A stretch of DNA of 64,000 nucleotides from Synechococcus sp. WH 8016 (GTDB lineage: Bacteria; Cyanobacteriota; Cyanobacteriia; PCC-6307; Cyanobiaceae), in assembly GCF_000230675.1 (NCBI RefSeq), contig NZ_AGIK01000001.1, positions 62,001-126,000 of the forward strand, given 5' to 3'. Shown here piece after piece: positions 7,703 through 35,800 of the stretch. Under the pieces are notes generated by a model. The model worked only from the letters and a program-made list of their open reading frames with translations. It was not told where the DNA came from and did not search any database. The position numbers were made by a program, and so were the translations under genes. Each line of letters begins with the position of its first letter. Within the stretch, counting starts at the first letter, position 1.

Positions 7703-8359
7703 TTAGAGTGCAACTCGAACTCCTAGTTGACCTCCCCAGCTACTCCAAGAAGCATTATTCCAATTGTTAAATCCATCTTTAGTGTTAAAATGTGAGGTTG
7801 CCCTGTAAATTCCTTCAGCGAATATTTTAGAGTCTGATGAAACATCTACAGACATGCCAGCTTTAAATTGATAGCCCCAGAGAGATCGATTGAATGCGTT
7901 ATAAGAGAGGCCTGGATCAGAAAAATTTCTTACGTCTAAGTTTGAATATCCTATTCCAGTACCAAGATATGGCGTCCAGGACTTCTTGCGCAGCAGATCC
8001 CAGTATCCGCTAATGAAAGCTGATTGCTTTCGAACTTCTCCACCTGAAATATAGTCAAAATCAATTCCTCGAACATTAGTGTAGCCACGTAATTGACTTG
8101 CATCAATAGCGTAAGTCGCCTCGATTCTTAAACCTTCAAAATCAATCCCAAATCCTAGCTCTGCAGATGCTCCAGGATTTGTATATTCCTCAAAAGTTCC
8201 TACCTTTCCTGTATTTGTTCGGGTCGTCGGATTATTGGCTCCAGCTGCTCCAGTTATATATAGCTTGGGATAATCATCCCTGTCCTCTTGAGCAATGACA
8301 GGCAGGGAAGTGATAGAGATGGCAGAAGCCAACAGCCCTAGGGAAAGGCGGCGCAGCAT
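7703..8359 (-). CDS. Outer-membrane beta-barrel protein (OmpW/OMP_b-brl type)
   Basis: 218 residues. A Sec signal peptide (MLRRLSLGLLASAISITSLPVIAQ, cleaved near residue 24) precedes alternating amphipathic strands rich in Gly, Tyr and Trp, for example ASAELGFGIDFEGLRIEATY and TPYLGTGIGYSNLDVR. It ends in a short strand (WGGQLGVRVAL). This is the pattern of small single-domain outer-membrane barrels. The function is unknown; a porin-like or surface role is possible. It stands alone, downstream of the broken transposase, and is read away from the next gene. Confidence 0.75.
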   Translation of the reverse strand: MLRRLSLGLLASAISITSLPVIAQEDRDDYPKLYITGAAGANNPTTRTNTGKVGTFEEYTNPGASAELGFGIDFEGLRIEATYAIDASQLRGYTNVRGIDFDYISGGEVRKQSAFISGYWDLLRKKSWTPYLGTGIGYSNLDVRNFSDPGLSYNAFNRSLWGYQFKAGMSVDVSSDSKIFAEGIYRATSHFNTKDGFNNWNNASWSSWGGQLGVRVAL

Positions 8360-34116: not shown

Positions 34117-34440
34117 TCAGAGATGCTTCGAAATCGTGCCGGAGAGCGTGGCCTTAGGAACTGCGCCCACGACGGTGTCAACTTTCTGCCCACCCTTAAA
34201 CACCATCAACGTGGGGATGCTGCGAATCCCGTACTGGCTGGCAACGTTCGGATTTTCGTCGGTGTTGAGCTTGAAGACCTTGATTTTGCCTTCGAATTCC
34301 TTGGAGATCTCGTCAACAATGGGAGCCACCATGCGGCAGGGGCCACACCAGGGAGCCCAGAAGTCAACTAAGACAGGAACGTCACTTTGAAGGACATCCT
34401 GTTCGAAGGATGCGTCGGTTACAGCGGTAGCGCTGGACAT
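34117..34440 (-). CDS. trxA: Thioredoxin
   Basis: 107 residues. The disulfide reductant motif WCGPC lies in [23 protein letters not shown], and the cis-proline loop is [13 protein letters not shown]. These are the marks of the m-type thioredoxin used by cyanobacteria to regulate enzymes by light and redox state. ATG at 34440 gives the usual length; an upstream Met adds four residues. It follows Yfr1 and guaB3 on the same strand. Confidence 0.98.
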
Positions 34441-34560
34441 TCCATTTGTCATCGTTATGGCGTGAATTTAGCAACCACTTCCGAAGATTTCTCGGTTTCT
34501 TCGGTGGGTCTACAGAACTGTGACGGTTTCGAGTCCAGACTCGAGCGCCGTTGGCGAAGA

Positions 34561-34624
34561 CAGAAAGCCCGAACGCGTCGGGCCGGGGGGTGTGAGGAGT
34601 GTGTGGGCCGAAGCCCGCACGCCT
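34561..34624 (-). ncRNA. yfr1: Yfr1 small RNA
   Basis: Read on the minus strand: a 5' hairpin (GTGCGGGC-TTCG-GCCCACAC), an unpaired stretch containing the cyanobacterial hallmark ACTCCTCACAC (34590-34600), then a 3' hairpin (GCCCGACGCGTTCGGGC) followed by TTTCT as terminator. Two stem-loops around this ultraconserved single-stranded box define Yfr1. Its position between guaB3 and trxA is the known location in marine picocyanobacteria. Yfr1 represses porin-type mRNAs through base pairing with that box. Ends are estimated from the structure. Confidence 0.92.
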
Positions 34625-34636
34625 TGAGATTAAGGC

Positions 34637-35800
34637 TTATTTGCCCATCCCTAGTTGCTGGGCTTTCTGATAAACCTTGCCTTCCGTGAGCAGGGATGGA
34701 GCCACCACCACTTCAACCTGCTGCATCTCTTTGATGGTGCGTGCCCCGAGAGTTCCCATCGAAGTCTTCAGGCAACCGAGCAAGTTGTGGGTGCCATCGT
34801 CCAGTTTCGCTGGACCTCGAAGGATGCGTTCGAGGCTGCCCGTGCTGCCAACGTTGATTCGTGTGCCCCGCGGTAGCACCGGGCTTGGGGTGGCCATTCC
34901 CCAGTGGAATCCCCGGCCTGGTGCTTCTTCTGAGCGGGCAATCGGGGATCCAATCATCACGGCATCAGCACCACAGGCGATGCACTTACAGATGTCGCCA
35001 CCGGTGACGATGCCTCCATCGGCCACGATCGGGACGTAGCGTCCGCTTTCCTTTTCGTAGTCAGCGCGAGCGGCGGCGCAATCGGCAACAGCGGTGGCCT
35101 GGGGAATGCCAACGCCGAGGACGCCACGGGAGGTGCAGGCAGCACCAGGACCAATCCCCACCATCACACCAGCAGCACCAGCGCGCATTAGTTGCAGAGC
35201 AACCTCATAGGTCACGCAGTTGCCGATCACCACGGGCACACCCATGTCGCGGCAGAGCGTTTCCAAATTGAGGGTGTCTTGGCCTTCAGGGCCGATGTGG
35301 TCGGTGGAGACCACGGTGGCTTGCACAAAAAACAGATCAGCTCCCGCCTCTGCGATCGCCTTGCCAAAGCGCAATGCCGCCACTGGGGTGCCGCTCACAG
35401 CAGCAATTCCGCCCTGGGCTTTGATCGCTTCAATGCGCTTGCGAATCAGGCTTTCCTGAACCGGTTTGCTGTAAATCTCCTGCATCAACGGCACAAACTC
35501 GTCCTTGCCGACGGATGTGATGCGATCCAGAGCCTCGGTGGGATCTTCGTAGCGGGTCTGAATTCCTTCCAGATTCAAGACGCCAAGAGCGCCGAGCTGG
35601 GAAAGCCGAACCGCCATTCCCACGTCCACCACGCCGTCCATGGCGCTGGCAATGATCGGGATTTCACGTTCGATTCCGCCTAGGGACCAGCTGGTGTTGG
35701 TGACCTCCGGATCAACCGTGCGACCCCCAGGCACCAGGGCGATCTCATCGATGCCATAGGCCCGGCGAACAACCTTGGAGCGTCCGAGCTGAATGTCCAC
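34637..35800 (-). CDS. guaB3: GuaB3-family IMP dehydrogenase-related protein
   Basis: 387 residues. TIM barrel of the IMPDH/GMPR family without the CBS pair seen in GuaB. The catalytic cysteine loop is [18 protein letters not shown], with the flap region near [12 protein letters not shown]. Starts [25 protein letters not shown], the standard opening of cyanobacterial GuaB3; GTG at 35800. It converts purine nucleotides (GMP reductase-like activity was shown for the family) and is not the main IMPDH. The stop is about 13 bases before Yfr1. Confidence 0.93.

Follow-up and report, generated by a model that had tools for sequence, protein, structure and literature searches.

Yfr1 is among the most widespread small RNAs (sRNAs) of cyanobacteria, and it is usually missed by protein-based annotation. 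Published work gives it a size of 54-69 nucleotides (nt) and recognizes it by the undecanucleotide ACUCCUCACAC, situated within an unpaired stretch of 16-20 nt with a stem-loop on either side (PMC2190773). Transcripts of 54-57 nt with their own start site have been described in MED4, MIT 9313 and WH 8102 (PMC1242208), and the order guaB-yfr1-trxA has been listed for all nine marine Synechococcus examined (PMC2190773). Functionally, Yfr1 represses the leader of the PMM1121 porin 3.8- to 4.7-fold in E. coli, a repression which Yfr2 relieves (PMC6778093), and it pairs with the ribosome-binding region of the mraY and murC messenger RNAs (mRNAs) (PMC6974561). A further family, Yfr10, shares the Yfr1 motif, with the box in a loop atop a stem (PMC6778093). 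Here we describe the yfr1 locus of Synechococcus sp. WH 8016, together with the likely targets and the relatives of its RNA, starting from 64,000 nt of contig NZ_AGIK01000001.1 (positions 62,001 to 126,000); we will refer to this whole stretch as “the window”.

The minus-strand element of 57 nt at positions 34564-34620 of the window is confirmed as Yfr1, an ordinary new instance of a well-known cyanobacterial regulatory RNA. In an Rfam search of the window it aligned end to end with RF01116 (model positions 1-59 of 59), scoring 69.2 bits against a gathering cut-off of 38 (E 1.2e-11), and it was the sole match in the window reaching the cut-off of its Rfam family. An original prediction on this DNA had placed Yfr1 between guaB3 and trxA and had itself proposed the covariance-model check that bore this out; its span, 34561-34624, lay in the right place, but it extended 3 and 4 nt beyond the Rfam match and came without a strand. 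The box between two stem-loops and the terminator-like 3' hairpin, also part of that prediction, were recovered through the exact box, the Rfam alignment and a terminator scan. The element is composed as follows:

34564..34620, minus strand: Yfr1 sRNA, 57 nt (Rfam RF01116)
34590..34600, minus strand: conserved box ACTCCTCACAC, which the Rfam consensus shows unpaired (found exactly once in the window)
34601..34620, minus strand: 5' stem-loop of Yfr1 (Rfam alignment, fold)
34566..34584, minus strand: 3' hairpin of Yfr1, a predicted intrinsic terminator, then TTCTGTCTT (terminator scan, Rfam alignment)
34627..34632, minus strand: putative -10 element TAATCT, 6 nt 5' of the Yfr1 start (by-eye comparison of genus loci)

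This Yfr1 has the exact undecanucleotide, and 16 residues separate its two helices in the Rfam alignment; in the single-sequence minimum-energy fold, two box residues pair with upstream bases. The T-run following the predicted terminator hairpin is interrupted (TTCTGTCTT). The box ACTCCTCACAC is also present in related yfr1 loci, and its complement occurs at three porin start regions and in the 5' ends of Yfr2. Allowing up to one mismatch, 0.92 boxes are expected per shuffle of the window, and this frequency, like the folding energy given below, is weak alone; the identification is made on the covariance model, synteny and conservation together. The two neighboring genes are the following:

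34637..35800, minus strand: guaB3, inosine monophosphate dehydrogenase-related (NCBIfam TIGR01304 GuaB3, 522 bits)
34117..34452, minus strand: trxA, thioredoxin (TIGR01068, 141 bits; PF00085)

The order guaB, yfr1, trxA is thus present in the window, all on the minus strand, with the guaB3 stop 16 nt before Yfr1 and the trxA start 111 nt after its 3' end. The source genome holds one Yfr1 match, and Yfr1 was found above cut-off in 59 of the 60 genomes searched, the window's own included, G044 being the sole exception, with no match; this search and those for sister RNAs and Yfr2 presented below used stricter filters, with some weak matches lost. A second Yfr1 match below cut-off was observed in G004 and G022, in both cases at box-bearing sRNA-like elements. 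Of 30 yfr1 loci retrieved, all have a CGPC-type thioredoxin motif downstream, and 29 have upstream a long frame that closes with the guaB3 C-terminus, the thirtieth running off its contig.

Complementarity to the box near porin starts, which the original prediction had suggested looking for, was seen at three porin starts elsewhere in the genome (C1:622023-622041, C3:639-657 and C3:2763-2781, all minus strand). These starts carry GGTGTGAGGACCGAAAATG, which holds the exact 10-nt complement of the box UCCUCACACC, ending 6 nt before the ATG. The exact complement is present in 3 of the 10 OprB-type matches of the genome, some of which are cut by contig ends or broken, and a fourth porin shows an 8-nt match to the box. 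In co-folding, controlled with 60 mononucleotide shuffles per partner, Yfr1 gained -9.0 to -10.6 kcal/mol with two of the exact-complement porin starts and the fourth porin (shuffle means -2.5 to -3.5), and -12.3 to -19.5 with the five Yfr2 of the genome (shuffle means -4.9 to -7.3). Among relatives, 37 loci with the complement before an ATG were considered, two loci near contig ends being left out. Eleven of their frames exceed 501 residues, and ten of these open as the porins here do (MKLF..LLVAPAALGLLAP), one place being counted twice among the ten. Porins elsewhere in the genome are likely the target class of Yfr1, to judge from these complementarities.

Two further observations were made in the course of this survey. 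One OprB-like match (G000:C5:3942-4970, L031) is broken by TAG and TAA, possibly a decayed porin gene. At G014:C1:822645-822662 (L212), GGTGTGAGGATGGGTATG opens a long frame, a possible non-porin target that, by its first residues, we take to resemble 1-deoxyxylulose-5-phosphate synthase.

Other candidate targets were discarded. The barrel gene at 7703-8359 of the window, which the original prediction had offered as a possible target, was not supported in that role: among 65 genes called mechanically in the window, its start ranks 53rd for box pairing, at -4.5 kcal/mol (-8.2 if the best alternative start is taken). Its co-folding with Yfr1 gained -0.4 kcal/mol, weaker than the shuffle mean (-2.1). 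This gene has a single weak Pfam match (Surface_Ag_2, 24.3 bits vs. a cut-off of 22), is not OprB-type by Pfam, and has no NCBIfam match. Nor does enrichment of GGTGTGAGGA before ATG establish a broad regulon: the 31 genomes hold 75 matches to GGTGTGAGGA-N2-14-ATG, a permuted prefix that keeps GAGGA gave 47 (the reversed pattern gave 4), and upon correction for one recurrent place the numbers are 53 against 47. That recurrent site, GGTGTGAGGAACATGATCATG, accounts for 22 of the 75 rows in 15 genomes, partly double-counted, and was dropped as a conserved target, with frames of only 10-58 amino acids in the loci read.

Broadly, the preferred explanation is that Yfr1 would be a short transcript with a small promoter of its own, directly behind guaB3, and a terminator of its own, its two hairpins presenting the single-stranded ACUCCUCACACC box. 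This box would pair with GGUGUGAGGA at the ribosome-binding sites of mRNAs, foremost those of several outer-membrane porins, where ribosome access would be hindered, and Yfr2-family sRNAs, whose 5' ends carry the complement of the box, could bind and neutralize Yfr1. Several results weigh against this explanation. The folding energy of Yfr1 is unremarkable (z -1.22, with 23 of 200 shuffles folding equally well or better). In co-folding, the lowest of the 60 shuffles reached -6.8 to -11.8 kcal/mol for the porin starts, beating the fourth porin (one of the three tried), and for two of the five Yfr2 the best shuffle was as good as or better than the real partner. The corrected count of GGTGTGAGGA given above (53 vs. 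47) belongs here too, as does the mean box pairing with window gene starts, which equals that of the reversed box (-8.79 vs. -8.71). There is no genome-wide excess of the box with up to one mismatch (33 sites vs. 40 for the reversed pattern), a search that also missed the porin sites, which differ by two letters. Furthermore, 57% of Yfr1-bound peaks have been reported within coding regions, and blocking of the Shine-Dalgarno sequence has been doubted as a general mode of action (PMC6778093).

Nonetheless, we consider the explanation as a whole very probable, and place it no higher because its target part stands on the porins alone. Identity, structure, context and the perfect complementarity to three porin starts and to Yfr2 5' ends are established here at the level of sequence; an own transcript and start, porin repression and its relief by Yfr2 are published in other cyanobacteria and, by analogy, would be the same in this strain.

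The region upstream of yfr1 is less uniform than the RNA itself. Across the genus (loci L001-L030, L181, L183 and L185), the guaB3 stop lies 36 nt before the box in 8 of 31 genomes, the window's included, and 76-97 nt before it in 19, the remaining 4 having by eye a similarly long guaB3-yfr1 spacer. These eight genomes lack the yfr1 leader region in its upstream part (the spacer of the window is 34621-34636), and a guaB3 tree of 29 loci unites them in a single clade (FastTree support 1.000); G034, outside the genus, also has a short spacer. As judged by eye, long spacers consist mostly of GAGAC-like repeats before a TAnnnT-like hexamer, and short ones hold the hexamer (TAATCT) only; such a hexamer occurs at the putative -10 position in most genus loci. 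We infer that TAATCT may act as the -10 element of Yfr1; a promoter scan found no sigma-70 consensus site before Yfr1.

The trimmed leader bears on a competing view, in which the 57-nt region is mainly the terminator or 3' untranslated region of guaB3, and Yfr1 largely a processed end of the guaB3 mRNA. This view arises because the stop codon is only 16 nt upstream in this clade, and it draws further on the loss here of the longer upstream region of 23 of the 31 genus genomes, on the lack of a sigma-70-like site in the scan and on the occasional guaB-Yfr1 co-transcription reported in S. elongatus (PMC3219970). The same source, however, terms that co-transcription negligible, own start sites have been mapped in MED4, MIT 9313 and WH 8102 (PMC1242208), and the TAATCT hexamer has been kept 6 nt before the Yfr1 5' end; we regard this origin as improbable. 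The window element might otherwise be a Yfr10-type sRNA, as it has the same box and the genome contains four Yfr10-like elements. Yet R1, a model built from these four, scores Yfr1 at only 15 bits (E 0.099) against the 69.2 bits of RF01116, so that the four elements are not Yfr1, the synteny of yfr1 is present, and the box of the window lies between two stems and not in a stem-top loop, as it does in Yfr10; an assignment to that family is extremely unlikely. An equally slim chance is given to fortuitous hairpins and a box between genes with no RNA made, an idea that the modest folding z-score would suit but that the E-value of 1.2e-11 and the 59 positive genomes of 60 contradict. A Yfr1 made from its own promoter remains the preferred reading of this locus.

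Besides yfr1, the genome carries four box-bearing sister elements, which would presumably be transcribed:

C1:669480-669548, plus strand: Yfr10-like element (box, 5' hairpin, T-run terminator)
C1:670973-671043, plus strand: Yfr10-like element (box, 5' hairpin, T-run terminator)
C1:671208-671276, plus strand: Yfr10-like element, extra copy without its own Yfr2 (box, 5' hairpin, T-run terminator)
C4:165827-165895, minus strand: Yfr10-like element (box, 5' hairpin, T-run terminator)

R1 yielded 62 matches in 24 of the 60 genomes, all within the window's genus. From the genus, 51 distinct elements were reduced to 48 by dropping three in which the main box is not the last before the T-run; L143, contained in L179, was omitted, and elements with an altered box were excluded. 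In single-sequence folds all 48 form a 5' and a 3' hairpin, a set chosen by exact box plus T-run and thereby favoring terminators; in 33 of them a second CUCCUCAC is enclosed by the 5' hairpin, and 27 keep at least 8 of the 10 main-box positions unpaired. All eight short-spacer genomes have R1 elements of at least 45 bits; G027 combines such elements with a long spacer, so the link between the two traits is not strict and common ancestry may be all they share. Two contigs labelled as metagenome-assembled genomes of Gammaproteobacteria and Phycisphaerae (NYVG01000056.1, L137, and PAFA01000044.1, L136, respectively) also carry a Yfr10-like element, that of L137 with a divergent Yfr2 80 nt away; both are probably misbinned picocyanobacterial contigs.

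The genome has five genes of RF01701, named Cyano-1, which we take to be Yfr2 in view of their copy number, their loop and their conserved 5' end. Their 5' end, TGTGAGGAG in four and CGTGAGGAG in one, complements the box. The four Yfr10-like elements pair in silico with the five Yfr2, although in 13 of the 20 combinations at least one of 60 shuffles equalled or outdid the real pair. Three of the four stand head-to-head with a Yfr2 at a gap of 78-85 nt (C1:669337-671276 and C4:165827-166041; L145, L158, L141). Within the genus, 36 of the 62 R1 matches diverge from a Yfr2 that lies within 600 nt, and in 31 of these 36 the gap is 77-85 nt; another 5 converge on a Yfr2, and 21 have none at such a distance. 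Seen from the other side, the 31 genus genomes hold 108 Yfr2 matches, of which 33 diverge from an R1 match and 5 converge on one; the flanks of the other 70 hold an exact box plus T-run at similar divergent spacing in 5 cases and none in 65. This amounts to 38 head-to-head, 5 tail-to-tail, none in tandem within the limits used and 65 unpaired, the latter an upper bound, as the flank search needs the exact 10-nt box within 500 nt.

The upstream regions of Yfr2 offered two side observations. At L178 (G018:C1:1906900-1907500), a solo Yfr10-like element has surroundings that by eye look like those upstream of Yfr2 in G028 (L173), but the Yfr2 itself is missing, which would be in keeping with a deletion of that gene. 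Of 100 distinct regions upstream of Yfr2 (loci L141-L180 and L238-L307), 30 contain a palindrome, TGGCACwGTGCCA (up to one change), 29 of them at near-equal distance, against 0 of 791 shuffled stretches; it may be the published CGRE1/GntR site.

Placing Yfr1 and its likely porin targets is useful and expected, and Yfr1 itself is ordinary; less ordinary are the box-bearing siblings set back to back with Yfr2, and worth a specialist's look are the census of these cassettes and the shortened region upstream of yfr1. Possibly, though we hold this only tentatively and deem it rather unlikely, this lineage delivers the Yfr1 box through Yfr1 and Yfr10-like sRNAs, often with two boxes, the latter as head-to-head cassettes with their own antagonist. 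From an intergenic region of about 80 base pairs, a box RNA and an anti-box Yfr2 would be transcribed in opposite directions, each cassette would act as a local switch on porin mRNAs and others through the ratio of the two, and part of the control may have moved to the cassettes as the clade trimmed the yfr1 upstream region. If true, conserved back-to-back box/anti-box cassettes in marine Synechococcus would represent a simple, testable design, an sRNA and its sponge on one promoter region. The literature searched contained no description of the head-to-head arrangement, key papers and supplements lying outside that search, and it is uncertain whether the cassettes and the trimmed region are unpublished.

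Compared with the described systems, the window element agrees with Yfr1 (RF01116) in box, two hairpins, terminator, size and guaB-yfr1-trxA order, and differs upstream only, where the guaB3 stop precedes the RNA by 16 nt, a distance of 56-77 nt in the 19 relatives from the genus whose long spacers were measured. The Yfr2 family (RF01701) is an antagonist or partner of Yfr1, and not the element of the window. With the Yfr10 family (Yfr10, Yfr12 and Yfr18 of Prochlorococcus MED4), the four elements share the box, three of them lying about 80 nt from a Yfr2; on the other hand, the genes here point away from each other, and 33 of the 48 genus elements have a second box in the 5' hairpin.
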